The position numbers were made by a program, and so were the translations under genes. From contig CANOMQ010000020.1 in assembly GCA_947567595.1 (NCBI GenBank), positions 1 through 64,000 on the forward strand: a stretch of 64,000 nucleotides of DNA. Direction: 5' to 3'. The stretch's first letter is position 1. The number at the start of each line of letters is the position of its first letter. Below the pieces are notes generated by a model. That model had not been told where the DNA came from and did not search any database. It saw only the letters and a list, made by a program, of their open reading frames with translations. Of this stretch, positions 13,912-48,841 are shown in pieces. The DNA comes from an uncultured Lachnospiraceae bacterium. Its GTDB lineage: Bacteria; Bacillota; Clostridia; Lachnospirales; Lachnospiraceae.

Positions 13912-13944
13912 GTGAAATTGTATAAAACATGAACATGATTTCAC
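13912..13944 (+). repeat. Inverted repeat between -10 box and ribosome binding site
   Basis: GTGAAAT (13912-13918) and ATTTCAC (13938-13944) bracket an AT-rich 19-nt loop. The repeat starts right after the -10 box and ends at AGGAGG, so it could be an operator or a leader hairpin affecting translation. Confidence 0.45.
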
Positions 13945-13955
13945 AGGAGGTACCA

Positions 13956-14594
13956 ATGAAAAAACAGTTTTTCAGACACTTATCGTTTTTCGCATGTATC
14001 CTGACGCTTGTGGTTTTGGCTACGGCATGCAGCAACAGTGCGCCCACAAATGGCGGCATTCCCACCGAGGAGCAGCGCTCGGCGGCAATTGAAGCTTTGG
14101 ACAGCGATGTCAGCAGCCTAGGCTTCTGGGTGGACGGCGTAACTTACCAGTTTCCCATGTATGTCAGCGATTTGACCGACAACGGCTGGGCATTTGACAG
14201 CTCCACGAAATCCGAGCTGAAAACCCTTCCCGCAAACACGCTTGTGGCGCCTGCCGTCGCCATGCGCAAGAAGGCGAATGACGGATATGGTGCGACCGCA
14301 TGTGCCGTGCAGCCAGTCAACAAAAGCACGTCGGAAACCACGCTTGAAAGCGCAAGGCTCTACAGCCTTAAATTTTCCAAGTCTGACGCCCCCACCCTCG
14401 TCCTTCCGTCAGGCATTACATGGGACAGCACCTTTGAGGAGGTCAAGGACGCCTGCAAGCACAAGACGGCTGTTGACCAAAACGGTATCAAATATATCCA
14501 AGTAAAGGGCGGCGATTCGTCCTATACCGTCACCATCAATTTTGACGCGGAAACTGACACGATAACAACCATCGAGTATCAGGGACGCTTATAA
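13956..14594 (+). CDS. Small lipoprotein of unknown function
   Basis: This is a 212-residue lipoprotein. The signal peptide starts at MKKQFFRHL and ends in the lipobox LATAC, with the lipidated Cys at residue 25. The exported part has no domain I recognise. Its sequence suggests a small mixed alpha/beta fold, ending in a SYTVTINFDAETDTITTIEYQG strand-rich segment. Start 13956 is chosen because AGGAGG lies five to six nt upstream. It is one of only four genes on the plus strand. It has its own promoter and a strong terminator shared with the convergent MATE gene. Confidence 0.85.
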   Translation: MKKQFFRHLSFFACILTLVVLATACSNSAPTNGGIPTEEQRSAAIEALDSDVSSLGFWVDGVTYQFPMYVSDLTDNGWAFDSSTKSELKTLPANTLVAPAVAMRKKANDGYGATACAVQPVNKSTSETTLESARLYSLKFSKSDAPTLVLPSGITWDSTFEEVKDACKHKTAVDQNGIKYIQVKGGDSSYTVTINFDAETDTITTIEYQGRL

Positions 14595-32249: not shown

Positions 32250-33455
32250 TTACTTAATCTTTTTTGCCACCACGACAAACCTGCCCTTATTCTCCTGATA
32301 ATCACAGGTTGACAGCGTAAGAAGCCTGTCCCCATAGGCGGCTGTTACCCCCGTGTCATATAGCGACAATGCTGCCATCTCATTCAGATAGGAATAAAAC
32401 TCCTTCTCAGAGACCGCATTGATAAACTGATAATACTTAAAGTTTACATCCTCCTCCGAGTAAACCTTCGAGCGAAACACATACATGACCTGATACTCAC
32501 CCTTTTCATATATTGTATCAAACTGTATGATTGGATGCTCCTCGTAATACGTCTGCTGACTGTATTTATTCAATGTCCCGAACATCTTTCCCGACTTCAT
32601 GTGATGCCCATAGAGAATGATATTGTCGCATCCTTTTATGACATCACACTGGTAGTCCATAAAAATACACCCGTTCTTATCCTCCTCCTGATTGAAATTA
32701 TGATTCAGATAATATTCATTATTGACTGTCTGCATAACAGGATAGTCAATTATTGTATCGTCAATTTTTACCCATCCGATTAGCTTTTGGTTCTTATTTA
32801 TTATTGCCTGATATTCCGGGAGCACGTCAGGCACTTCCACCGTCTCATCCGTATAATGGATTTTTACGCCCTTAGAGCCTGATAACGGCGCGCTTGCACC
32901 TGCTTCCTTTAGCGCCACTAATTCCTCAAACTCTTTGGCGCTTTTTGCCGACACCTGATAATAGGCGCCCAGATATCCAAAACTTACCAAGCACAAAAGC
33001 ACGCAGACTGCCATCACCAGCTTTCGTTTCCGCTCCCTTTTTTTCATAATCAGAAGGATTTCCTGCTGCATCCTCTGATCCATGTCCTCCAGCCGGATTT
33101 TGTCTTTTCCCGTATTGTGCGCCTTTTTTCTGCCCTTTAGTGCGCTTTTTAGCTTTTCAAGCTCCTGCTTTCTTTTCTCCCTGTTTTGGCGCTCCTTCTG
33201 TTCCTTTTGCGCCTTTTCCTCCTGAAGTCTTTGATACAGCTCATAAATGTTGTCGTCAAACTGTCTTCCGACGATGGACTCAAACGCATATCCTCCGTTT
33301 TTTAATTCCATATACAACGCTTCAATATCCTTTGGATTATCCAAATCAAAATCGCCGGTAATGGAATCAATGAGCTGCTTGTCCCGAAGCGCTGCCTGAT
33401 ACTCTTCCTGCGTACAAAAGCGCCTGCCCTCAATAGTCCATTGTAAGTCCGTCAT
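32250..33455 (-). CDS. srtB: Class B sortase, first copy
   Basis: This 401-residue membrane sortase carries catalytic His in IILYGHHMKSGKMFG, Cys in LLTLSTCDY and Arg in GRFVVVAKK. The class B assignment follows from the YGHHM and TLSTCDY context and the long N-terminal extension. A cytoplasmic N-terminal part of about 165 residues, highly charged and probably coiled coil (RKQELEKLKSALKGRKK), precedes one TM helix (about 170-190). It is the first gene of the operon encoding the giant TPSTG protein. The start is ATG 33455 behind AAGGGGAG; the in-frame TTG at 33476 overlaps that site. Confidence 0.93.
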   Translation of the reverse strand: MTDLQWTIEGRRFCTQEEYQAALRDKQLIDSITGDFDLDNPKDIEALYMELKNGGYAFESIVGRQFDDNIYELYQRLQEEKAQKEQKERQNREKRKQELEKLKSALKGRKKAHNTGKDKIRLEDMDQRMQQEILLIMKKRERKRKLVMAVCVLLCLVSFGYLGAYYQVSAKSAKEFEELVALKEAGASAPLSGSKGVKIHYTDETVEVPDVLPEYQAIINKNQKLIGWVKIDDTIIDYPVMQTVNNEYYLNHNFNQEEDKNGCIFMDYQCDVIKGCDNIILYGHHMKSGKMFGTLNKYSQQTYYEEHPIIQFDTIYEKGEYQVMYVFRSKVYSEEDVNFKYYQFINAVSEKEFYSYLNEMAALSLYDTGVTAAYGDRLLTLSTCDYQENKGRFVVVAKKIK

Positions 33456-33571
33456 TTTTTCTCCCCTTCTATCCAAGCTTACATTGTAATACGATATCCG
33501 TCAGATTAAACTGCCGTGTTCCAAATATTTACATAAACCTTTTATTTTAATTAGTTTACATATATACTATT

Positions 33572-33703: not shown

Positions 33704-36700
33704 TTATTTTACGGTGACTGTCACATTGACGGTTACCGGCTTTGCCTCTGCGTCGGCGTCCTTAAACCGAACCTGACACGCCAGCTTATAGGTGCCCTTT
33801 TTGACACTCAGCTTATCGCCTGCCAGTCCAAAGCTGATTGTGCCGTTGCGAAGCAAATCGTTTGACAGGGAAAACTGCTCAGCATTCTGACCTTTTACGT
33901 CAAACGTAATGCCGGAAATGCTGTTTAATCCAAGACTGCTGTTCTGTAGTGACAACGCGGTCACGTATTTATTGGAATTGCCCCTGTACAGGTTTCCTTC
34001 CTTTGGACTTAGGACAATCTTTGGCAGCTTGTTAACCGGTTTTATTTTGACATCCGTCTCAATCTGATATCCGTTCTCGAGTGTGGACTGCACGGTCACT
34101 TTGTATGTCGTTTTGCTTGACATACCCGCTATCCCTGCTTTCGCCTTCACCTCAATCTTCTGATCCTGATTTAAAACAGCCGTAAAGAATTTCTGACTGT
34201 CACCTGTTACCTTTACAGAACGGACTGGTGATTCGATGCCGGAAACCTTTGGCGTGTATACAATTGATGTCGCATTGCGTTCCACCAGATTAATCTTTCC
34301 CTTTGGTGAGGACAGTGCCACCTTTGCAGCCTTTGTATCCGCAATTTTTATGGTCAGGGACGCTTTTTTGATTGTCACCTCCGAATCGCCAACCGCGATT
34401 GTTGCATACAAATCCAGTTTGTAACTTCCCGGCTTAACGGCACTCTGGCTGTCCTTGACCAGACCAAGGTCTATCGCCTGTCTCTTTGTGCTGAACTCAT
34501 AGTAGAGAACCCTCTTGTCATCAATCAGCGCCTTCGCTGTCCCGTCATATGTCATTCTTATGATTTTGACATCATTTCCGCTTACAGAGACAGGAATCCT
34601 GTTGATTCCGTGATCCTTCATATTCGTCCCCATGTTCAGCGTCAATTGCCTGCTTCCAAGCGCGAGTGTCAGCTTATCCGGTGACTTGACATAGTTGATT
34701 TTACCCTTTATGTCAACATCCTGCGTCCATTCGTTGTTTTGCAGCGCAACCGTATACGAGGTGCTCTTTCCGCCATAATAGGTAATGCTCATGCCGCCTT
34801 GTGCGTTGATGGACGGCTTCTCCAATCCGTTTACGGACTTTGGCATGGTAAGCTGCATTGACGCGCTCTTTAAGACAAGCTTTTTCTTCGTTTTTGCATC
34901 CACGACATCCACCGCGCCGGATATCATACCGGGACAGATTGTAAGGCTCGTGCTGCTGTATTTCGGTTTTTTATTTTCCGTCTTTACCTTCACGTCAATA
35001 TACTGCGGCTCATTGTATCCGACAAAACGAACCTCTAAGCGCGTCTCTAAGCGCGGCGATTTTGAATCCGTAAACAAGCCGATTGTGGTACGGTCCAGCG
35101 TTCCCTTTGTGCCAAAGGTCACGGTCTTACTGTTTTTATTGTACGTCCCATAAAACCGTTCCTTATAATTTTGCGAGCCTGCATCCTTGACAGACGCAAT
35201 CTCATAGTTGCTTGAAATGGTATAAACCGCTGCCGCATCCCGGTAAAACAGATTTGCCTTTTGCTTTAATTTTATGGCAGCCGTGGGCAGGGTTACCTCC
35301 GTAACAATGGTTATCGGATACTGGTAGCGCCCTCCTTTTATCGTTTCGACCTCAAGCGTCGCATTGGTTGATGTTTTTTTGTCATAGCCCTTTGCAGGCG
35401 AATTGTCCCTGATTGTCATTACGGACATTCCGTTTACCGGAAGCTTTGCCGAAAAGCTTGGTGATTCCGCGTTCTGCTCCAGTACCCTGACCTTCTTGAT
35501 GGAATTACCGTTTTGTTCCTGCAGGGCAAACGGCGTTCCGATTGTATTATTCTTGTTGACCGTGATAACCGCCGACTCAACCACCGGCTCATAATCCATC
35601 ACATTGATTGTCAGGGTACCCACAAATGCCCCCGGATCCCCCGCAACCGCCGTAATCTGTACGATACCGACGCTCTTTATGGTCAGCACCACATTGCCGT
35701 CCTTATCCGTAACCAGCTTTCCGGTCTTTTTATCCACGGTAAAGGAAGCCACGGTCTCGTCATCTGACGCCCATTCATATGTGATGTTTTTTGCAGGCAC
35801 TTCATTAATCGTTGCCGCAAGCGCGATGGAAACAGGATACTTCCCGTCAACCCTCTTTACCTCGTTGACATCAACCTCCATCAGTTTCTTTTCGGGAAGG
35901 AACGTAAAGCTTTGCTCCGCTGTCTTTACCGGAGTCAGGACAATATTATCCACACAGTCCTCTAACGGCACGGTAATGCTGAATGTCCTTGCAAGCATAT
36001 CATTGCCCTCAAGCGTCCCGTTATCAATGGACAGGGTAAACCGGAACTCTGCCACGCCGCCGTCCGATTCCTCTTTTGTCGTAATGACAATCTGCTTCTT
36101 ATCCACAGACGTTACCTGTGCGATATCGCCGTCCGAAATCTTAACGCAGTTCACGCTAAGCCGTTCGTCTATTTCCTCCCAAATGATACTGCGCCCTACA
36201 TATTCGTAGGAAACCTTGAAGACCTCCTCTTTTCCCCTGTTAATCAGGCTCCTTCCTTCAATGTTAATTCCTGTAATACGCGTTACCGCAACCGGAAGCC
36301 TTGCCGAAAACGACGCATACCCCTCCTGCGTATAAGTGGCGCCATAATACTGGACAGTCGCATCATCACTGGCGGAAAGGGATATCGAGCCGTCATCCCA
36401 CTGCCAGCCCTCGGGAAGCTCGCAGTATTCGAGCGTCCTGTCAACATTCTCAATATAGCTTCCGATTCCTGCCTCCGCAATCTTTGCCTTTTTCTCCGTC
36501 AGCGAGAACAACCCCGTTACGGAAACAGACATATTTGTCACATGCGCCGTTCCGTTTAAGGATACCCGCAGCGTTGCCGTTCCCGAACCGATTGCGGTTA
36601 TTTTTGCCGTAGTCGCCGAAAGCTGCTTTACATAAAGGACATTTGGATCCGAGGAAACAAATGTCATCCGGTGTGTATCATCCTCAGAGCCCATTGGCAG

Positions 36701-39700
36701 GGTATACACCTTTACGTCAAAGGTATCACCCACCCACATATGCCTGCTCGAAGCATCCAAAACAATGCCGTCCACCTTCGCCGTGACCGTCACGATGATA
36801 TTTTTCTCAACGCCGTCGGCAAAGATTGTGACAACCGTCGTTCCTGTCTTCTCTGCCGCGTGTACAACTGCCTTATTGGCATTTTCCTCGTCTGCCTCAA
36901 CGGTTACAATGCTCTCATCCTTCGCCTCAAAGGTCGGCTTCTGCTTGTTTCCCGTGACCGTGATGACAGCCGAGTCCTCGCCCTCAACGCCAAGAAACAG
37001 GATATCGGTCGTAATCTCTGCCTTGAAATCATTTTGTATGATTTCTTCCCGGTATCCGATTGTCACGCCCGGATACGTCCTTCCCCAGCCGTCCGCGTCG
37101 GAAATGACCATATCATAAAGTGTGTCTTTATTCGGAAGCGTGTTGTAAAACTCTTTTGTAAAATAATAGTAGTCATCCTCTGTCGCCGCCGTGATTGTTA
37201 AATCCGTAAGCACGGTAGTGTCATTGGGCGCATAGAGGTTTACCGTTGCCGGAAGCGCCATATATTGAAGGTTAATGCCGACCACCCTGTTGTTTGCCGT
37301 TACCTTAATCGGCATACCTCTGTTAAACGCAATGGTCTTAAGCTGACCGCCCTTTTGCTTTTCGCTGTCGGTATAGTATGATTTCGTCATATCCGACATC
37401 ATAAACGGATACCCAAAATCCTCATAGTCCTTGTTTTTATGTGTCAGAAGCACATAGTAGTCACGGAAAGCCTTCGTCCGCTTCAAGCCCGTAACCTCCA
37501 TATAGATGCTGTCCGAATACCTGTTTGTAATCTCAGACTTAAGGTCCTCCACCTCCCTGCCGTCCGTGCGGGTAAGCTTTATGTCAAAATCATCCTCTTC
37601 GGAGCAGTTCGGTGTTTTTATGTAAACCTGCATGGTATCATCATTAATCCATGAAATCGAATACTCATCCAAGACAAACTTCCTGTTCTTTGCCTCGACA
37701 AGCTCAAAATCATAAAATGCAATCTGCTGTGTGGTACCCTCTTTATGCTTGAAAATTTCCACCTTATATTTTCCGATTTTTAACTTCTGCGTCGGAATGA
37801 CAACCTTGATGTTGGTTCCCCTTCCTGCATCCTCCCTAAGCCATTCTGTCGCAGACACGACGGCATCCCTCGACGCCCCGTCCTGCTCGGCAGTTATTTT
37901 TGCGGACAAATCACTGCTGGTAATGCCCGCCTCCTCACAATAATAATAGAAGTAATGCCGCTCCGCATTTTGGGAAATGACCTTTGGCGCGTCCCATCGG
38001 TTGGTGCTCAGCACCTTTTCGTCAATGTTAAATTCCGTGCTCGAATACGGGTGCGCCGTATCGCCGTCAACCACAAGCCTGACAAAATGCTCCCCCGGCT
38101 CCAGACTGCCCTGCGGTGTCAGATAAATCAGGCTTTCCGTCAGAGAATTGGAGGTCGTGGAATAAACCTCATCCTGACCGCCCGTTTTCCTGACAATGCT
38201 AAACTGCGTCCTCTTTCCGTTCAAGTCAACCGCAACGCCTACCTCTACCGCCTTGAGCACCGGATTATACGCCGCATAGTAAATTCCGGTTTTTACCGGT
38301 GACGTAAACTCGCTTTTCGAAAACCGGATATTGTGTCCCGAAAGCGACACATAAATGCTCTCTCCCGCCTTCGGCCAGTTTCCGTTTTTCTTAAATTTTA
38401 CAATATACCCCGACCAGACCTCCTTGGAGCTTACCCGCATCGAATTGAGCGGCGTCCCCGTTGAAGAGCCTGCCTTAAAATTAAAGTTCACATCCGCCGG
38501 ATTAAAGCCGGAGCCCTGTATGAAAAGGTACGCATACGGACTTGTATTATCATAATCCACTGCTATGGTACAATTCGTGACAACCGCGTCGGCAGTAATG
38601 GAAACCGCATTGCTGATATCCATTGTCTCCTCGTTGGTAAAAACAAGATTGAGATTATAATTGCCAAGGTCAATCGCATTCTTTAAGTTTGTCAGCGTCC
38701 ATACACTCTTATATAAAAGAACACCTGTTTGTGGCAAAATCACTTCGGGAAACACATAGCCGCTGCATATTCCCGTATAGCGCGGATCCGTCTTGATCGG
38801 CTCCTTTATCACAACACTGTCCTTTGTTGGCGCCGCCACGGTCTCACCGTTATTGGAAAGCGCAATCCGTTCAATATCGTCCGCGGTATTGAAAATGGTT
38901 ACCTCCACACTGTCATCCGATACACCCATATAATACGGCGTCTTTTCAAGGAAGATTTCCTGTTCGACAACCGTAAAGACTGCCTGCCTTTTAACCAGCT
39001 CCCTTTTTTCACCGCTGGCGCTTAGTCTCGTCAGGGCAAGCGACATCGTATGGGCATTGGAGGACGTGCTTACCAATTGCTTTTTATCCAGCTTAATAAT
39101 ATAGTAGCCTTCCTGCTTCGGATCCTGAATGACCTCTCCGTACCCCGCATCTTTTCCGCAGGGCTTATCATCAACGCTAAACTCCATTGTCACGTCTTGG
39201 GGAATCTCACAGCCGCTAAGCTTCATGATGATATACAAGGTTCCCTTGTAACAGTAATAGGTATTCTCTGTCGCCATGACAAGCTTTGTATAGTCAATGA
39301 GATCCATGTCGTCGTCCGCTAACACGTCCTCCTCATTGTCAGACAGCGTTTCCTGCGGCTCGCTTTCCATCGTTTCCGGCTGCGTCGTCATCTCAGCCGT
39401 TTCGGTCTCCTGTATGGTCTGCGTCCCGCCTTCTGTCTGTGCCGTATCGGTATCCAAGGTCTCTGTCTGTTCGGGCTGCGACTCTTCCACCGATACGGTA
39501 TCAGCCTGCGTTTCGGACTTCGGCTCTGCCACCGATGCCGTTACAGTCTCTGTCTCCTGCGCTTCATCCTCTGCTTCCGGTTCCTGCACTTCTAACTCCT
39601 CTGCCGTGCTTTCATTTGTCAGGCTGTGCTCTTCTGGTTCGCTTTGCGTCTGTGCTTCATCAATACAGACAGGCTCGCTTGCAAGCACGCCAGACGGCAC

Positions 39701-39769
39701 TGCCTGAAACAGCATACTCGCACACAAGACACCTGCCAGCAGTTTTTTCCATACCTTAAATGCTTTCAT
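33704..39769 (-). CDS. Large secreted Ig-like (BIG2) surface protein without sorting signal
   Basis: This exported protein of about 2,021 residues has a signal peptide (MKAFKVWKKLLAGVLCASML ... VLAS). An acidic Glu/Thr/Gln-rich region spans about 30-165. Many Ig-like beta domains follow. One is a clear BIG2 domain (about 1010-1110: VDGIVLDASSRHMWVGDTFDVKV ... ITAIGSGTATLRVSL), and a second BIG-type segment follows near 1370-1460. The protein ends in a beta strand, with no LPXTG-like motif or C-terminal anchor, so it may be released or held non-covalently. The start is ATG 39769 after AAGGAGG. It has its own promoter and terminator between the two sortase operons. Ligand unknown. Confidence 0.88.
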   Translation of the reverse strand: MKAFKVWKKLLAGVLCASMLFQAVPSGVLASEPVCIDEAQTQSEPEEHSLTNESTAEELEVQEPEAEDEAQETETVTASVAEPKSETQADTVSVEESQPEQTETLDTDTAQTEGGTQTIQETETAEMTTQPETMESEPQETLSDNEEDVLADDDMDLIDYTKLVMATENTYYCYKGTLYIIMKLSGCEIPQDVTMEFSVDDKPCGKDAGYGEVIQDPKQEGYYIIKLDKKQLVSTSSNAHTMSLALTRLSASGEKRELVKRQAVFTVVEQEIFLEKTPYYMGVSDDSVEVTIFNTADDIERIALSNNGETVAAPTKDSVVIKEPIKTDPRYTGICSGYVFPEVILPQTGVLLYKSVWTLTNLKNAIDLGNYNLNLVFTNEETMDISNAVSITADAVVTNCTIAVDYDNTSPYAYLFIQGSGFNPADVNFNFKAGSSTGTPLNSMRVSSKEVWSGYIVKFKKNGNWPKAGESIYVSLSGHNIRFSKSEFTSPVKTGIYYAAYNPVLKAVEVGVAVDLNGKRTQFSIVRKTGGQDEVYSTTSNSLTESLIYLTPQGSLEPGEHFVRLVVDGDTAHPYSSTEFNIDEKVLSTNRWDAPKVISQNAERHYFYYYCEEAGITSSDLSAKITAEQDGASRDAVVSATEWLREDAGRGTNIKVVIPTQKLKIGKYKVEIFKHKEGTTQQIAFYDFELVEAKNRKFVLDEYSISWINDDTMQVYIKTPNCSEEDDFDIKLTRTDGREVEDLKSEITNRYSDSIYMEVTGLKRTKAFRDYYVLLTHKNKDYEDFGYPFMMSDMTKSYYTDSEKQKGGQLKTIAFNRGMPIKVTANNRVVGINLQYMALPATVNLYAPNDTTVLTDLTITAATEDDYYYFTKEFYNTLPNKDTLYDMVISDADGWGRTYPGVTIGYREEIIQNDFKAEITTDILFLGVEGEDSAVITVTGNKQKPTFEAKDESIVTVEADEENANKAVVHAAEKTGTTVVTIFADGVEKNIIVTVTAKVDGIVLDASSRHMWVGDTFDVKVYTLPMGSEDDTHRMTFVSSDPNVLYVKQLSATTAKITAIGSGTATLRVSLNGTAHVTNMSVSVTGLFSLTEKKAKIAEAGIGSYIENVDRTLEYCELPEGWQWDDGSISLSASDDATVQYYGATYTQEGYASFSARLPVAVTRITGINIEGRSLINRGKEEVFKVSYEYVGRSIIWEEIDERLSVNCVKISDGDIAQVTSVDKKQIVITTKEESDGGVAEFRFTLSIDNGTLEGNDMLARTFSITVPLEDCVDNIVLTPVKTAEQSFTFLPEKKLMEVDVNEVKRVDGKYPVSIALAATINEVPAKNITYEWASDDETVASFTVDKKTGKLVTDKDGNVVLTIKSVGIVQITAVAGDPGAFVGTLTINVMDYEPVVESAVITVNKNNTIGTPFALQEQNGNSIKKVRVLEQNAESPSFSAKLPVNGMSVMTIRDNSPAKGYDKKTSTNATLEVETIKGGRYQYPITIVTEVTLPTAAIKLKQKANLFYRDAAAVYTISSNYEIASVKDAGSQNYKERFYGTYNKNSKTVTFGTKGTLDRTTIGLFTDSKSPRLETRLEVRFVGYNEPQYIDVKVKTENKKPKYSSTSLTICPGMISGAVDVVDAKTKKKLVLKSASMQLTMPKSVNGLEKPSINAQGGMSITYYGGKSTSYTVALQNNEWTQDVDIKGKINYVKSPDKLTLALGSRQLTLNMGTNMKDHGINRIPVSVSGNDVKIIRMTYDGTAKALIDDKRVLYYEFSTKRQAIDLGLVKDSQSAVKPGSYKLDLYATIAVGDSEVTIKKASLTIKIADTKAAKVALSSPKGKINLVERNATSIVYTPKVSGIESPVRSVKVTGDSQKFFTAVLNQDQKIEVKAKAGIAGMSSKTTYKVTVQSTLENGYQIETDVKIKPVNKLPKIVLSPKEGNLYRGNSNKYVTALSLQNSSLGLNSISGITFDVKGQNAEQFSLSNDLLRNGTISFGLAGDKLSVKKGTYKLACQVRFKDADAEAKPVTVNVTVTVK

Positions 39770-39835
39770 GGATAACTCCTCCTTCACTTTCTTCTATTTT
39801 CAGTCTTTGGACAATATAGCTGTATATTATTTATC

Positions 39836-40021: not shown

Positions 40022-40048
40022 ACACTTTTTCCCCTTGCACATATAGTA
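40022..40048 (+). promoter_or_regulatory. Sigma-K-like promoter of the Gly/Cys-rich gene
   Basis: CATATAGTA (40040-40048) fits the Bacillus sigma-K -10 consensus CATANNNTA, and AACA (AC at 40022-40023) lies 16 bp upstream as in sigma-K -35 elements. The expected start would be about 25 nt before the ATG. No good sigma-A promoter is seen here. The match is by eye and the consensus is short. Confidence 0.45.
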
Positions 40049-40078
40049 TAGAAAAACACTTCTTCGGAGGTAATTACC

Positions 40079-40357
40079 ATGAGTGAATTATCAGCAAGCA
40101 ACTGTGGCTGCAATCAGGCACCAAACTATTCGGAGTGTGGATGCGGCTGTGGCAACAACAACGGATTTGGAAGCTGGATTTGGATTTTAATCCTTCTTTG
40201 CTGCTGCGGCGGCAACAACAGCTTTGGATTCGGATGCGGCAACGGCTGTGGATGCGGCAATGACAACGGCTGCGGATTTGGCAATGGCTGCGGAAGCTGG
40301 ATTTGGATTTTAATCCTTCTTTGCTGCTGCGGCGGCAATTCAAACGGCTGCTGCTAA
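40079..40357 (+). CDS. Gly/Cys-rich small protein with duplicated hydrophobic-CCC module
   Basis: This 92-residue protein is built of Cys-Gly-Asn repeats (CGCGCGNNNG) and two identical hydrophobic modules, GSWIWILILLCCCGGN, at about residues 31-46 and 72-87. Cys makes up roughly a quarter of the protein. There is no signal peptide. CGGAGG lies eight nt before the ATG, and a good terminator follows. Short Cys-rich proteins of this look occur in many Lachnospiraceae, some under a name referring to chorion-type high-cysteine proteins, without known function. The upstream sigma-K-like element suggests a disulphide-crosslinked spore-coat component; that is an inference. Confidence 0.85.
   Translation: MSELSASNCGCNQAPNYSECGCGCGNNNGFGSWIWILILLCCCGGNNSFGFGCGNGCGCGNDNGCGFGNGCGSWIWILILLCCCGGNSNGCC
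40169..40215 (+). repeat. 47-bp direct repeat, copy 1
   Basis: This stretch is identical base for base to 40292-40338 and encodes the hydrophobic-CCC module. The copies start 123 bp (41 codons) apart, so the reading frame is preserved. Identity at synonymous positions indicates recent duplication or gene conversion. Confidence 0.95.
40292..40338 (+). repeat. 47-bp direct repeat, copy 2
   Basis: Second exact copy of the module at 40169-40215; it reaches to within seven codons of the stop. Confidence 0.95.
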
Positions 40358-40376
40358 ACCAAACGCGTTTCGACGC

Positions 40377-40411
40377 AGAGGGCTCGGTCTGTGTACACGG
40401 GCCCTCTTTTT
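40377..40411 (+). terminator. Terminator of the Gly/Cys-rich gene
   Basis: AGAGGGC...GCCCTCT is followed by TTTTT, beginning 20 bases after the stop codon. It is a strong intrinsic terminator, implying that the next two genes need their own promoter. Confidence 0.85.
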
Positions 40412-40447
40412 ACGGTATGGCGTTTCCATACAATTTTTGCGGCGCGG

Positions 40448-40476
40448 GAATATCCGCCGCTTCCTGTTCATATGAT
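40448..40476 (+). promoter_or_regulatory. Sigma-E-like promoter of the two unknown plus-strand genes
   Basis: GAATATC (40448-40454), a spacer of exactly 14 bp and CATATGAT (40469-40476) match the Bacillus sigma-E consensus (kmATATT, 14 bp, CATACANT) with about three mismatches overall. It lies between the terminator of the Cys-rich gene and the gene at 40544, where a promoter is required. Confidence 0.5.
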
Positions 40477-40488
40477 GTTATGAACAGG
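40463..40488 (+). repeat. 10-bp inverted repeat over the putative -10 box
   Basis: CCTGTTCATA and TATGAACAGG are perfect arms with a 6-nt loop. The repeat overlaps the sigma-E-like -10 and the likely start site, so it may be an operator, or the -10 resemblance may be incidental to it. Confidence 0.55.
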
Positions 40489-40543
40489 GCTACCCTGCGT
40501 GCCATGTGCTGCCACGTTTATCAGATTGGAGGTTTGGAATACT

Positions 40544-41020
40544 ATGGACGACAATGATTATGTGCTGGCGTTTGACCATTTTTACACCACCAATCATATC
40601 CAGATTCTAAAATCGCTCATTCCCTTTATCGAGGGCGAGCAGTCTGGTATGCTGCCCGTCATCATCAAATATATGGAATTGCAGTATACGCTCTCGCTGA
40701 TCAAAAAAGGAAGTAAGCCTACAGGAGAAGCGGGGATTTATGCGTGCAGCAAGGGACAGGGGGAAAAGGACGAAAAAGGGCTTGAAAACAATATCGAACA
40801 GATTTATAACGCCGTACACCGCTACCTTGCCCCGAACGAGGAGAAGGAATTTTCGCAGCTTTTATCGGCAATGCGCACGATGAAAAACATGCGCGAAATG
40901 CAGCAGATGCTTGAAATGCTCCAAAGCCTGAACCCGGATTCCGACGCAAACGCCACAAATGGCTTTGGCAATCTTGATATCAATGAAATTATGCAGATGT
41001 TCAATCAAAACGGAGGCTAG
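40544..41020 (+). CDS. Unknown helical protein, possible sporulation gene
   Basis: This is a 158-residue soluble, mostly helical protein. Recognisable stretches are FDHFYTTNHIQILKSLIPFI, MLPVIIKYMELQYTLSLIKKG and a Met-rich C-terminal helix (MRTMKNMREMQQMLEML). No signal peptide or TM segment is seen. The start is ATG 40544, with GGAGG 11 nt upstream; a longer frame from 40499 has no ribosome binding site. It is followed after 6 bp by another small helical gene. I do not recognise the family. A sporulation role is suggested only by the promoter-like sequence and the Cys-rich neighbour. Confidence 0.8.
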   Translation: MDDNDYVLAFDHFYTTNHIQILKSLIPFIEGEQSGMLPVIIKYMELQYTLSLIKKGSKPTGEAGIYACSKGQGEKDEKGLENNIEQIYNAVHRYLAPNEEKEFSQLLSAMRTMKNMREMQQMLEMLQSLNPDSDANATNGFGNLDINEIMQMFNQNGG

Positions 41021-41026
41021 ACCAAT

Positions 41027-41311
41027 ATGGACGCAAACAAAAAATGGTTAAACGATCCTGCGCTTGCAGGAATTGACAAGGCAAAACTTTCCTTTCTTGA
41101 AAAGCTTTTTATCCAAACCACGTCAATTGACATGACAAACCAAAAAGAAATGCTGCCTTTCCTGCTCTCGCTCTCAAAGCTTAGCAGGGAAAACAACATT
41201 TCTTTTGAAAAAGATGAGGTTGCACTGATTTATTCCGTACTGCAGAAATATTCAAGCAAGGAAGATATTTCTAAGATGGAGAAAATCTCTTCCGCCTTCC
41301 ATTTCCAGTAA
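41027..41311 (+). CDS. Unknown small helical protein
   Basis: This is a 94-residue acidic/basic helical protein (LSFLEKLFIQTTSIDMTNQKEMLPFLLSLSKLS). The phrase MLPFLLSLSKL recalls MLPVIIKYMEL in the gene before it, so the two may be distant relatives or partners. It is encoded 6 bp downstream of that gene with CGGAGG before the ATG, so both are surely cotranscribed. Its last 41 bases overlap the 3' end of the convergent TPKTG surface-protein gene. Function unknown. Confidence 0.78.
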   Translation: MDANKKWLNDPALAGIDKAKLSFLEKLFIQTTSIDMTNQKEMLPFLLSLSKLSRENNISFEKDEVALIYSVLQKYSSKEDISKMEKISSAFHFQ

Positions 41312-43841
41312 GCACAAGCAGCATTCCTGCCGAAAACAGGACGCATACGAACAGCATACGGTACTGCACCGGATCACCTGTTTTGGGTGTGGAATCCTTG
41401 ACATGCCGCGCGCCGGACGCAGCGCTTTGTGCCGTGGCATTCTTTTTTGTGGTTGTCTTTGTCTTTGTCTTTGATGCCGCAGACGCACTACTGATTCCCC
41501 CTGACGAAGGCTTCTTTGCCGCAGGCGTATTTGATGCCGCGGGCGTGCCGGATACTGCCGGCGTCTCTGTCGGTGTCTGCGACACTGCGGGCGCTTGTGG
41601 CTGTGTTTCACCGATTGTTACGGCATTTGCGCCAAGCGCTGATGTCGCCGCGCCTACTGCGCCTGTCCCAGCCGACGCGCCCAAGGTCACGCTTGTACTG
41701 CTGGTATTTGCCGCATTGCCCGTTGTACTCGTACTGCCTGAGCCTGCAGTTCCCCCGATGGTTGCTCCCAGCGTTATGCCCTTGGAGTCATTTGACTGAA
41801 TCACGCTCACCGAATCGCTTTTTGTCGTCTGCTTCTTATCGGACTCTGCCGCTTCCTTATCATATACAAGGTGCTTATATTTTGCCGCAAGCTCCTTTGC
41901 AATCGTTATCGCACGGTCAGATTTTGCGGTAAGCGTCACGTCCTTTGTCGCCTTTTCAAAGGCTTGGAATGCGTCGTCCTCCACATCTGTCAAGCCGTCC
42001 GGAAGTGCAATGCTCTTAATCGCACTGATATTCGAAAACGCGTCTTCTCCGATTGCGGTTATGGTGTCCGGTATTTTGACGGCGCTTGCACTGCCGCTAT
42101 ACTCGTAAAGCACGGTCTTTTTCGCATTCATCGTAAAGCCGGAGGTTGTTGCATACCATTTTTTATAAAGTGTCAGGTTTTTCTTGACCTCCTTCACCTT
42201 CCCGTCCGAATTGGTCTTTGTGTACTGGGACAGGCAGTTTTGGTCTGTGTACCAGTTGGAATCCGTATTATAGCCGGAATATTTGAATACCGCGTCGCTG
42301 TCGTAATCGGGATAGTCCTTCTTGGCAATGCCCTTTCCCTTCTCCACCTTTGTCTTTACCTTTGGCGCGCCGCTGTAGTCCTCCCCGTTGTAAGTCCCGC
42401 TGTATTTTCCGCCGTTCATGTCAAAGGTGACGGTATACCCGTCCGTCTCCCACTGCGCATAGAGCGTCAGATTGCCGGACAATGGCTTTCCCCATGTCAC
42501 AAACTCCGTGTCGGAGTCCTCTTCGTCCGTATACCAGCCCTTGAAGGTCTTGCCCTTTATTGTCGGCTTTTGGGACGGCTCGTTGACCGGTTCGTCCTCA
42601 TAAAGCTTCACCTTTTCCGGAACATGCTCCGCCCCTTCTGCCACAAAGGTCACATAAAAGTATGGCTTGATTTTCCGGTCCCATTTACCATAAATGGTCG
42701 TATCCTGCTCTATCGTATCCTTTGCAAAATCCCATGCCGTGGTACAAGCCGAATCCTTATACCAGCCGTCAAAGGTATATACTGTTTCCTGCTTTCCGTC
42801 GTCGGTCTCCACCGTGTAGCTTCCCTGTTCCAGTTTTTGGGGCTGTCCTCCGGAAATGGACACAAGTTCTGACACCGTGCTGTGCGCGGCAACGGTGCGT
42901 TTTTCACCCGTTATTCCCGAAATTCCGGTATCGAAGGTAACGGTATATTCCCGCGCTTCCTCGGACTGCGGTTCTGTTTCGGTCTGCGTCTGTGTCTCGG
43001 TTTCTTTTTGCTCCTCGCTTGTCACCGGCGTCTCCTGTCCGCCGCCGTTGTCCTCCTTCGTCTGGCTTTCCCCTTCTGTCGTCCGCTGTGTGGTGCTTTC
43101 CGTCTGAGGCTCTGCCGCGCCCTCTGCTTGGTTTTCCGGCGTTTCATAGTCAATTCCGGCAATTTTCTCCACCTTGTCTACATCAAGATAGGAGCTGTAT
43201 ACAAGCTGTTCATAGCTTTCGGCAAGCCTTTGCGCCATTTCCTTTGACTGCGGGGACTCATTGTCGTAAATATAGATGATATTGCTCTCCCCTGCCACGC
43301 CGCGGAACGCATTGTCATAGATTGTCTCAATGCATTTTGGCAGTACAATCCCCCTCACGTTTGAAATATGGTCAAATGCGTCCGGTGCGATTGTCGTCAC
43401 GCTGTCGGGTATCTGAACAAGCTTTGCGTCGCCGCTGTACTGGTACAGCACTGTCTTATCCGGGTTCAGGCAAAAGCCGTCCTCCTTGCAAAACCACTTT
43501 TTATAAATCGTCACGCTTTCCGAAATCCTGCACTCCTTGTCAAATTCCTCGATACACGCCTTATCCGTATACCATTTCCCTTGCTCCGTCTCGTACCCCG
43601 CATAAGAGGCATACTGCTCGTCGGGAAAATTGTCTATTGTGCTGTTGTTGTCGAGGACTAGAACTGGCGTTTGTTTTTCAAACCGATAGCCGTTATACTC
43701 CCCGTTAAATTCCCCGCCGTTCATGCTAAAGGTGACGGTACTTGTCTCCTCCGCCTGCGCCTCGGGCATTGGTATCTGCGCCAAGACCACTGCCAAAACC
43801 ATAAGGCTTACCCCTAAAATATTTTTTAATCTGCGATACAT
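41271..43841 (-). CDS. InlB-repeat/LRR surface protein with TPKTG sorting signal
   Basis: This is an 856-residue secreted protein with a signal peptide (about 1-30). Residues 36-215 and 471-660 are two copies of a composite module: an InlB-type strand (VTF(S/D)MNGG), a WYTD..C segment, YKKW, then LRR_5 repeats ending QLVY/HLVY. Between them are a Glu/Thr-rich linker and two InlB B-repeats (YTFDGWYKD, GKTFKGWYTD). After module two comes a 130-residue Thr/Ser/Ala wall linker and a sorting signal: TPKTGDP, a hydrophobic helix, RRKRF. It lies 12 bp behind the second class B sortase, its probable anchoring enzyme. Adhesion role inferred. Confidence 0.9.
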   Translation of the reverse strand: MYRRLKNILGVSLMVLAVVLAQIPMPEAQAEETSTVTFSMNGGEFNGEYNGYRFEKQTPVLVLDNNSTIDNFPDEQYASYAGYETEQGKWYTDKACIEEFDKECRISESVTIYKKWFCKEDGFCLNPDKTVLYQYSGDAKLVQIPDSVTTIAPDAFDHISNVRGIVLPKCIETIYDNAFRGVAGESNIIYIYDNESPQSKEMAQRLAESYEQLVYSSYLDVDKVEKIAGIDYETPENQAEGAAEPQTESTTQRTTEGESQTKEDNGGGQETPVTSEEQKETETQTQTETEPQSEEAREYTVTFDTGISGITGEKRTVAAHSTVSELVSISGGQPQKLEQGSYTVETDDGKQETVYTFDGWYKDSACTTAWDFAKDTIEQDTTIYGKWDRKIKPYFYVTFVAEGAEHVPEKVKLYEDEPVNEPSQKPTIKGKTFKGWYTDEEDSDTEFVTWGKPLSGNLTLYAQWETDGYTVTFDMNGGKYSGTYNGEDYSGAPKVKTKVEKGKGIAKKDYPDYDSDAVFKYSGYNTDSNWYTDQNCLSQYTKTNSDGKVKEVKKNLTLYKKWYATTSGFTMNAKKTVLYEYSGSASAVKIPDTITAIGEDAFSNISAIKSIALPDGLTDVEDDAFQAFEKATKDVTLTAKSDRAITIAKELAAKYKHLVYDKEAAESDKKQTTKSDSVSVIQSNDSKGITLGATIGGTAGSGSTSTTGNAANTSSTSVTLGASAGTGAVGAATSALGANAVTIGETQPQAPAVSQTPTETPAVSGTPAASNTPAAKKPSSGGISSASAASKTKTKTTTKKNATAQSAASGARHVKDSTPKTGDPVQYRMLFVCVLFSAGMLLVLTGNGRRKRFSPS

Positions 43842-43853
43842 GTTCTCCTCCCC

Positions 43854-44957
43854 CTAATTGATTTTCTTTGCAATCACCACAAACCGCCCGTCCTGCGTGT
43901 AATAATCACACGTCGATAAAATCAGGCAGGAATCACCGTATTCCAGCGTTTCCCCTGTGGTGTAAAGTGCATTGGCTTCTATATTTTGCTGAAATTCGGT
44001 AAAGCGCTCCTGCGTGCTGATGTCAATCGCGTCATAATAGCGGAATACGTCCTCATCTTCATACGCCACGGCAGAAAGCATTGCCGCCACCACGCGGTAA
44101 GTCCCCTCCTCATAAAGGCTGTCAAACCGGATTGTCTGGTGTTCCATGCAAAAGTCCTTGTCCTTATAATTTTTCAGCGTTCCAAACATGACGCCCGTCC
44201 TCATGTTGTGTCCGTAGATGATGATGTTCTGCCCGCTTTCCAGCACATTGCTGCGATAGTCAAGAATGAGAAGCCCGTTCTTGTCCGGCTGCCCCGTGAA
44301 GTTTTTGTCCAAATAATAATCGTTGTCCCCTTCCCTTGACATGACAGGGTAATTGATTTTTGTCCCTTCGATGGAAAGCCAGCCGGAAAAGTCCTCGTTT
44401 TCCTCATGCAAAGCCGTAAACTTGCTTAAAATGACAGGCTCATCCTGCTTTTCTAGTCCCGTCTGGGGCGGCGGCTCGCATTGTTCCTCGTCTGCCTGCG
44501 CGCTGGTGTCCGATATTGGTGTCGTATCCAAATCTGCAGACACGGTTATTTTGTCATGCAGCTTTTTGGTCTGATAATTGGTTCGCATGTCCAAAATCAA
44601 ATTCCAGTTCAGAAAGACAATGCAGAGCAAAAGAACCGCCACGGACACCACGGACGCAATGATTTTGTTGATACGAAACAGCCGTTTCACATTCTGCTTC
44701 CTTCTCTTTTTGGCAAGAAGCTTATCCTCTATCCGCGCCTTCTGCGCCTGCGTCATATTCTGCAATACCCGCTCTAAAAATGCTTCCCCCTTACTGCTTT
44801 GAAAGGTTATGTTATTTGACTTGATTTTATAGTAAATTTCCTGTGCAAGCTGTACGGTAAGCTCTTTTTTTCCACGCATTAACTGGCTTATGAGTTGTAA
44901 GTCATGCTCAAACGCTTCAGGATCATAGCCTGTGCCATATTTACTATCCTTTTCCAT
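43854..44957 (-). CDS. srtB: Class B sortase, second copy
   Basis: This is a 367-residue class B sortase with catalytic His in IIIYGHNMRTGVMFG, Cys in LILSTCDYY and Arg in GRFVVIAKK. The N-terminal cytoplasmic region (about 100 residues, basic) is followed by one TM helix (about 105-125). It is shorter than the sortase at 32250-33455 and clearly diverged from it, so the two are unlikely to be recent duplicates. It heads the two-gene operon with the TPKTG surface protein. AAGGTG precedes the ATG. Confidence 0.93.
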   Translation of the reverse strand: MEKDSKYGTGYDPEAFEHDLQLISQLMRGKKELTVQLAQEIYYKIKSNNITFQSSKGEAFLERVLQNMTQAQKARIEDKLLAKKRRKQNVKRLFRINKIIASVVSVAVLLLCIVFLNWNLILDMRTNYQTKKLHDKITVSADLDTTPISDTSAQADEEQCEPPPQTGLEKQDEPVILSKFTALHEENEDFSGWLSIEGTKINYPVMSREGDNDYYLDKNFTGQPDKNGLLILDYRSNVLESGQNIIIYGHNMRTGVMFGTLKNYKDKDFCMEHQTIRFDSLYEEGTYRVVAAMLSAVAYEDEDVFRYYDAIDISTQERFTEFQQNIEANALYTTGETLEYGDSCLILSTCDYYTQDGRFVVIAKKIN

Positions 44958-48494: not shown

Positions 48495-48497
48495 CAG

Positions 48498-48841
48498 TGG
48501 AGTAGACGGGAGTCGAACCCGTGTCCAAAAAACCATCCCATGTACTTCTACAAGCTTATCCGGCTGTTTCGGGCAAGCCCGGTTCCCTTCCGCATAGGCG
48601 AGCCAGCGCCCCTAAACGGTCAGTAGCTTCATGATACGCCCATATGCGCAAAGCTTTGCATATGTCGTTTCCTACAAAATCGATGCCTGAGTCCCGATGT
48701 GTAGGTGCACCCGGTCAGACAGCAGCCATTAGGCTGCGTATGCTAAATTATCTTCAGCGTTTAATTTTAATTTTGGAATTAACGCATACCTGCGGCTTGC
48801 TTCTCCATCTTCAAGTTCCCTGTCGAAACCTTTACTACCCC
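48498..48841 (-). ncRNA. ssrA: Transfer-messenger RNA (tmRNA)
   Basis: On the minus strand the RNA starts GGGGTAG...GGTTTCGACAGGG and ends with a T arm (GGTTCGACTCCC) and CTACTCCA. Its first seven bases pair with the last seven before the discriminator A, which fixes the ends; CCA is only partly encoded. The tag reading frame ends in ...NAEDNLAYAA with its stop at 48729-48731, a typical hydrophobic proteolysis tag. The partner gene smpB lies 500 bp upstream on the same strand. Confidence 0.96.

Follow-up and report, generated by a model that had tools for sequence, protein, structure and literature searches.

A three-gene cassette of the Lachnospiraceae follows sporulation genes across genera and very probably helps to build the spore

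What might three small genes of no described function be doing when they run rightwards, between two sortase loci, through a stretch of bacterial DNA in which nearly all other genes point leftwards? The stretch in question, called the window throughout, consists of the first 64,000 nucleotides (nt) of contig CANOMQ010000020.1 from the 4.16 Mb draft genome of an uncultured Lachnospiraceae bacterium (GenBank assembly GCA_947567595.1; 99 contigs, 98% complete). The genes are the plus-strand open reading frames (ORFs) ORF1 (40079-40357; 92 amino acids, aa), ORF2 (40544-41020; 158 aa, with an ATG start at 40544) and ORF3 (41027-41311; 94 aa). An earlier interpretation, made from the letters of this DNA without database searches and referred to below as the sequence-only reading, had proposed that they form a sporulation module expressed in the mother cell. 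Among gut anaerobes, the Lachnospiraceae are one of the major families; many of them spread as spores, and we know of no builder of their spore surface. Comparative analysis of the cassette strongly supports a role in sporulation; it very probably helps to build the spore and perhaps contributes to the spore's protective outer layers.

The same cassette, in the same gene order, is conserved across the Lachnospiraceae. Our main sample consisted of 150 genomes of this family, one per genus, among which a search with the single ORF2 sequence found 32 matches and a profile of 28 relatives found 97; the core of this protein reads FDxLxTxxxIQxLKxLLPxxxxxxQxxLxxxIKYMELQYT. Fifty of these 97 loci were read by eye, namely the window, the next 29 and 20 of the 21 lowest matches (G001 was left out). 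ORF3 lies downstream of ORF2 in all 28 assessable cases among the 29 closest loci (one contig ended), and an ORF1-type protein is encoded no more than about 1 kb upstream in 25, with masked upstream letters in one of the other four. Of the 20 divergent loci, 17 have ORF3 after ORF2 and 7 have an adjacent ORF1. A further set consists of 80 named loci, the best of 154 relatives that closer members had retrieved; ORF1 is upstream in 77 of them and ORF3 just downstream in all 80. Isolates COE1 (L091) and A4 (L107) carry the cassette, and the former, Lachnospiraceae bacterium COE1, is the window's nearest named relative here (ORF2 identity 86%). The two sets overlap in at least two contigs (L129/L002 and L169/L004), so that their counts are not independent, and L012 was left out of all alignments and promoter counts. 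Judged by eye, and for luxS by its coordinates, the neighbouring genes vary between genera (some have leuS with a sortase, as in the window, and others luxS, truA or S8 peptidases), and the unit is therefore conserved more widely than its neighbourhood. All three genes are under purifying selection: the ratio of nonsynonymous to synonymous substitution rates (dN/dS) against four relatives was computable in 11 of 12 comparisons and lay at 0.06-0.17 in these (ORF1 0.08-0.17; ORF2 0.06-0.12; ORF3 0.06-0.11 in three of four, the fourth being saturated in dS).

Across the same 150 genomes, the cassette follows the sporulation markers, for which we used SpoIVA (TIGR02836) and SpoIIIAE. SpoIVA matched in 103 genomes (101 above the cut-off), that of the window included. 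ORF2 and SpoIVA occurred together in 95 genomes and both were missing from 45, with ORF2 alone in 2 and SpoIVA alone in 8 (Fisher p 2e-27, phi 0.85); LuxS, a control of similar frequency (109/150), gave a phi of 0.17. Incomplete genomes do not explain this co-occurrence because, among the 126 genomes with a completeness of 90% or more and a contamination of 5% or less, ORF2 was found in 86 and SpoIVA in 89. To correct for kinship, a quick maximum-likelihood tree was built from rpoB segments of 132 genomes (18 had no usable rpoB), on which 17 independent supported pairs differ in SpoIVA. Over 200 random pairings, ORF2 differed the same way in a mean of 15.4 pairs, the opposite way in 0 and not at all in 1.6 (sign test: median p 3e-5, range 3e-5 to 2.4e-4), whereas the LuxS control went the same way in 4.5 and the opposite way in 2.4. 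Changes in sporulation are usually viewed as losses (PMC8340488), and the pair counts themselves are silent on loss versus gain. The sequence-only reading had expected these families to be limited to spore formers and had named wide occurrence in lineages without spo0A and sigE as evidence to the contrary. Judged by SpoIVA and SpoIIIAE in place of these two genes, no such wide occurrence was seen, as 95 of the 97 genomes with ORF2 carry SpoIVA and 2 do not; the 17 tree pairs agree with this restriction, to which G092 and G251 (see below) are exceptions.

Both parts of the cassette are preceded by promoter sites of mother-cell types. In Clostridioides difficile, sigma-E and sigma-K promoters are reported to have the -10 element in common and to differ at -35, with ATA for the former and AC for the latter (PMC3789822); our search patterns, AC or ATA followed by N15-17 and CATA(nnnT), use these letters, and the shuffle values given with the counts come from dinucleotide shuffles. 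In the window, a sigma-K-type promoter precedes ORF1 at 40022-40047 on the plus strand (AC at 40022-40023, 16 nt, CATATAGT at 40040-40047), and a sigma-E-type promoter precedes ORF2-ORF3 at 40450-40476 on the same strand (ATA at 40450-40452, 16 nt, CATATGAT at 40469-40476). Upstream of ORF1, AC-N15-17-CATAnnnT was found in 27 of 32 genera (shuffle mean 0.9, maximum 5) and in 73 of 74 named loci (mean 3.1, maximum 8; of the 77 loci, two had too little upstream DNA and one had other letters), with the ATA version at chance level (1/32 and 0/74). The CATA and the T of this box are invariant across 24 genera, and the block CATATAGTATA is identical in all 27 aligned close sequences, with the DNA farther upstream diverged. 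The ribosome-binding site of ORF1, GGAGG at 40066-40070 on the plus strand, is invariant in 24 aligned rows, one per genus. Many genera also show a TAA (as TGTAA or CATAA) a few bases past the -10, near the expected transcription start, in place of which the COE1-type branch that includes the window has AAAAA; this TAA may be an initiation element or a second box that overlaps the first.

Upstream of ORF2, ATA-N15-17-CATA was found in 21 of 35 genera (shuffle mean 2.4, maximum 8) and 37 of 80 named loci (mean 4.7, maximum 10), and its strict form with the final T in 16 of 35 and 17 of 80, respectively; by alignment, the site is also present in the window's close relatives. As a positive control, the same ATA pattern preceded spoIVA in 15 of 20 chosen genomes of the family (mean 1.9, maximum 5) and the AC pattern in 5 of 20 (mean 3.1), with neither upstream of the spoIVA of the window's own genome. 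This genome has a SigK-like match of 275 bits, which lies below the model cut-off of 298.65, as does that of Bacillus subtilis, and a second strong sigma match of 250 bits that is presumably SigE. The sequence-only reading had pointed to a sigma-K-like -10 ahead of the first gene and a sigma-E-like site ahead of the pair, and both are where it had placed them, the first conserved far above the shuffles and the second well above chance though not uniform. Its central proposal of a mother-cell sporulation module gains support from these promoters of the predicted types, together with the occurrence of the cassette across independent changes in SpoIVA.

Between ORF1 and ORF2 lies an intrinsic terminator (40378-40406, plus strand) with a 9-bp stem and a T-run behind it. 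In 18 chosen sequences, 98.8% of the 162 cells of this stem pair, with 4 of the 9 pairs altered on both sides, and none of 500 shuffles reached its percent paired or its covariation score; the stem is preserved through compensatory change. With a promoter for each and a conserved terminator between them, ORF1 and ORF2-ORF3 are probably two transcription units.

Several observations weigh against a sporulation cassette of this kind. The co-occurrence with SpoIVA has exceptions on both sides: G092 (460 contigs) has an ORF2-like gene and no match to SpoIVA, SpoIIIAE or ORF3, and eight SpoIVA-positive genomes have no ORF2 match, two of them with an ORF3 match, one weak. Four of the other six are less than 80% complete, which leaves G021 (92%) and G037 (96%) as either real gaps or cases of a very divergent ORF2. 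G030 (86% complete) has ORF2 without a SpoIVA match; its SpoIIIAE match lies below the cut-off, and so does the SpoIIIAE match of the window's own genome. Outside the order, moreover, hardly any of the spore formers sampled has the family. In a class-level sample of 245 genomes, the ORF3 profile matched in 7 and SpoIVA in 174, and the cassette is therefore a trait of one order, the Lachnospirales, and not core sporulation machinery. Three of these seven genomes are Lachnospiraceae (G000, G022 and G391) and two belong to other families of the order (G209 and G309). G251 (78% complete), also from a different family, has ORF3 without a SpoIVA match, and its cassette and truA neighbour resemble Lachnospiraceae loci; the match in G279 is weak and partial, coincides with a ribosomal-L33-like ORF and is probably an artefact.

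The promoters and the gene order add further points of this kind. The strict AC form precedes ORF2 in 4 of 35 genera and in 19 of 80 named loci, compared to 17 of 80 for the strict ATA form, so that the ORF2 promoter is not uniform and some lineages may use sigma-K alone or both sigma factors. Since CATAnnnT includes letters of a sigma-A -10 and the boxes overlap, sigma-A-like sites were also counted. The window's ORF1 promoter site itself scores 9/12 as sigma-70-like, and sites with 9 of 12 letters were found upstream of ORF1 in 16 of 32 genera (shuffle mean 7.5, maximum 13) and 21 of 74 named loci (mean 12.2, maximum 21). At 10 of 12 letters, the counts are 3 of 32 (mean 2.0) and 1 of 74 (mean 2.1), and the TTG of a sigma-A -35, compared with the three letters before AC, has no match in 16 of 27 genera and matches one letter in 10. 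With strict-level sites near chance and the TTG unconserved, we hold a sigma-A promoter for ORF1 to be unlikely. ORF1 is non-adjacent in 13 of the 20 divergent loci and need therefore not be the partner of ORF2-ORF3. Finally, no solved-structure or family-level homologue was found for the cassette proteins.

The profile searches behind this last point cover all three families. The window's proteins have no significant Pfam or NCBIfam match, nor was a significant curated family found with 28 ORF2 members against Pfam or with 28 and then 90 ORF3 members against Pfam and NCBIfam; 25 ORF1 members gave no NCBIfam match at E 0.1. The sequence-only reading knew of no described function for these families and had suggested a profile search of the two helical proteins, the outcome of which agrees with it. 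The matches with the lowest E-values were taken as noise of helical composition, namely Maelstrom for one of the 28 ORF2 members (E 0.003) and TadB_TadC_N for 14 of the 90 ORF3 members (best E 2e-4). Literature searches, among them searches by peptide motifs, found no publication that describes these proteins in its title or the opening of its abstract, and a RefSeq name for such proteins, "high-cysteine HCB protein", led to nothing related.

ORF2 and ORF3 are probably helical, judged from their sequences alone, and seem to have one helical unit in common. Their profiles align over 36 columns (hhalign probability 81, E 1.2e-5), with probabilities of 0.2 for a reversed profile and at most 7.3 for 60 column shuffles. 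At locus L085, which belongs to another family of the order, a single 200-aa ORF (1153-1755) resembles ORF2 over residues 12-163 (E 1.7e-11) and ORF3 over residues 117-199 (E 2.8e-11; both values from a two-sequence search), and this natural fusion suggests that the two proteins contact each other. At L090, on the reverse strand of the SpoIVA-positive genome G013, which has no normal ORF2 match, a single short ORF comes after ORF1 and aligns with portions of both the ORF2 and the ORF3 profile.

An alternative that we consider unlikely is that ORF2 and ORF3 are a pair with a regulatory or checkpoint role in the mother cell that would bind a transcription or morphogenesis factor by a helical hook like that of SinI and SinR, with ORF1 as an unrelated neighbouring coat protein. 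SinI and SinR form a dimerising pair through a hook made of a short helix, an S-P-E-E turn and another helix, an arrangement that ORF3 would share; SinI (5tmx, 38 residues) is the top solved-structure match of the ORF3 profile A9, and its NCBIfam model is among the four tied for most member matches. The divergent loci with ORF2 and no adjacent ORF1, as well as the separate promoters with a terminator between them, would suit such a pair. However, this similarity is not significant (E 0.22 for A9; SinI is absent among the solved-structure matches of a second ORF3 profile, A6; 3 of 90 members match the NCBIfam model, best E 0.003), the Pfam and NCBIfam scans showed no DNA-binding domain, and ORF1 adjoins the pair in 77 of the 80 closer loci.

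ORF1 consists of two like units, each a Gly/Asn/Cys arm followed by a short Ile/Leu/Trp stretch that usually ends in CC or CCC. In the window, this Gly/Cys/Asn-rich protein starts with MSELSASNCGC and carries the module WIWILILLCCC twice, within a 72-nt direct repeat that is 85% identical, and it has a single match in its own genome even at E 10. Our ORF1 set contains 102 sequences of 67-115 aa, a few of them from the same contig, and its commonest starts fit MS(D/E)L-x-A-(S/T)-x-CG. The Gly/Cys-rich protein with duplicated hydrophobic-CCC modules that the sequence-only reading described is the rule in this set: exactly two modules are found by pattern in 101 sequences, and the last scores one, its second being weak and visible by eye. 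On average the proteins are 21.3% Gly, 16.8% Cys (median 13 cysteines) and 14.9% Asn, and they are nearly free of Lys (0.0%), Tyr (0.1%), Pro (0.2%) and Arg (0.4%).

Such a high cysteine content in a protein with a sigma-K-type promoter fits the class of self-assembling, Cys-rich spore-surface proteins. CsxA of Clostridium sporogenes, ExsY and CotY of the Bacillus cereus group and CotY of B. subtilis are reported to self-assemble into crosslinked arrays that need harsh reducing conditions for disassembly (PMC7333573), and similar roles have been proposed for many unrelated Cys-rich proteins (PMC7333573; PMC7677010). ORF1 is Cys-rich as well, and a similar assembly and spore location are predicted for it; it differs by its small size, its arm and short aliphatic strand repeated twice, and its travelling with ORF2-ORF3. 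In C. difficile, the Cys-rich exosporium builders include CdeM and CdeC; the residue number of a C-terminal variant puts the length of CdeC at 405 or more, and in E. coli it forms organised lamella-like bodies (PMC7677010). ORF1 resembles them in being Cys-rich, but CdeC and CdeM were reported absent from the Lachnospiraceae in a BLASTP search of 214 genomes (PMC6101409), and ORF1 is a candidate for the spore-surface builder of this family. Its separation from CsxA, ExsY, CotY and CdeC comes from curated-family scans rather than from direct sequence comparison.

The sequence-only reading had allowed for a membrane-inserting as well as a crosslinked layer, and the former part has become doubtful. 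With a median of 8 residues (range 4-11), the uninterrupted hydrophobic core of an ORF1 module is short for a membrane-spanning helix of about 20 residues and suits a stacked strand. That ORF1, as a small protein, instead acts on or sits in the outer forespore membrane or the mother-cell membrane, in the manner of the small hydrophobic sporulation proteins, is somewhat less likely still than a regulatory pair, despite its two strongly hydrophobic Ile/Leu/Trp stretches and a weak match of the window's protein to the Pmp3 proteolipid family (its best Pfam match, E 1.7). Besides the short cores, the many cysteines and the lack of any significant match in the family scans speak against it.

We consider it likely that the genes form a mother-cell cassette of the Lachnospirales whose ORF2 and ORF3 products combine early and then assist ORF1, made late and crosslinked by disulfides, in assembling or becoming anchored within the coat or exosporium. 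In this picture, we infer the timing, the binding of ORF2 to ORF3, the self-assembly of ORF1 and its location. Early in sporulation, sigma-E of the mother cell would make ORF2 and ORF3, which most likely bind each other via their common module and would act at the surface of the forespore, be it as scaffold, as chaperone or as anchor. Later, sigma-K would make ORF1, whose Gly/Asn/Cys arms would be flexible and whose Ile/Leu/Trp strands probably stack; its cysteines would then probably lock the stacked strands by disulfides into a tough layer of coat or exosporium. In B. subtilis, the morphogenetic proteins SpoIVA, SpoVID, SafA and CotE are likewise made under sigma-E, before the sigma-K-dependent structural proteins that they organise; the comparison with ORF2 and ORF3 concerns timing alone, as the curated-family scans gave no significant homology.

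The surroundings of the cassette in the window are those of cell-surface genes. The position of the three small rightward genes between sortase loci was verified from the ORF list and by sortase domains in both flanking genes (32250-33476 and 43854-44957). On one side, a surface-type protein of 2027 aa whose N-terminal part is rich in Thr and Glu (33704-39787; no Pfam match at E 0.001) lies between sortase gene and cassette, and on the other a leftward gene for an LRR_5/Flg_new surface protein (41271-43841) that ends in an apparent sortase signal, TPKTG, and whose 3' end overlaps that of ORF3 by 41 bp (41271-41311). The long ORFs of the window agree with its almost wholly leftward transcription; a second plausible rightward gene at 13929-14594 encodes a 221-aa lipoprotein-like product without a Pfam match at E 0.001. 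A tmRNA gene on the minus strand (48495-48841, 131 bits) was the sole Rfam match in the whole window at gathering thresholds. We rejected a functional link to the sortases, given that neighbours differ between genera, though some relatives keep leuS and sortase surroundings. Cargo of phages or plasmids was likewise rejected, as a tblastn search of 50,697 phage and 72,556 plasmid records with ORF2 found nothing at E 1e-5; searches of PHROGs gave weak matches only, all of unknown function (best E 0.0044 for ORF1, 0.079 for ORF2 and 0.0004 for ORF3). An accessory role of the cassette at the cell surface or in stress, with a presence that follows clade or genome size, might be suggested by its surface-protein and sortase neighbours and its near confinement to one order, but is very improbable given that the independent pairs on the rpoB tree follow SpoIVA and the LuxS control does not, that mother-cell-type promoters are conserved and that the cassette stays where neighbours change.

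What emerges from this locus are three concrete unannotated families, of which ORF2 occurs in 95 of the 103 SpoIVA-positive genera sampled, and which are a possible marker set of spore-forming capacity in metagenomes. The two-module rule of ORF1 offers a simple, testable materials design. A 66-gene sporulation signature of gut bacteria has been described (PMC4890681, PMC8340488), and one of the cassette genes may be among its uncharacterised members. More tentatively, and somewhat short of what we would call probable, the Lachnospirales may have evolved a spore-surface builder of their own that replaces proteins of the CdeC/CsxA type, with an early ORF2-ORF3 heteromer derived from a duplicated helical unit nucleating the ORF1 layer, whose paired strand modules would stack before runs of cysteine lock them. 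If this is true, loss of the cassette would be a reproducible part of the loss of sporulation during host adaptation.

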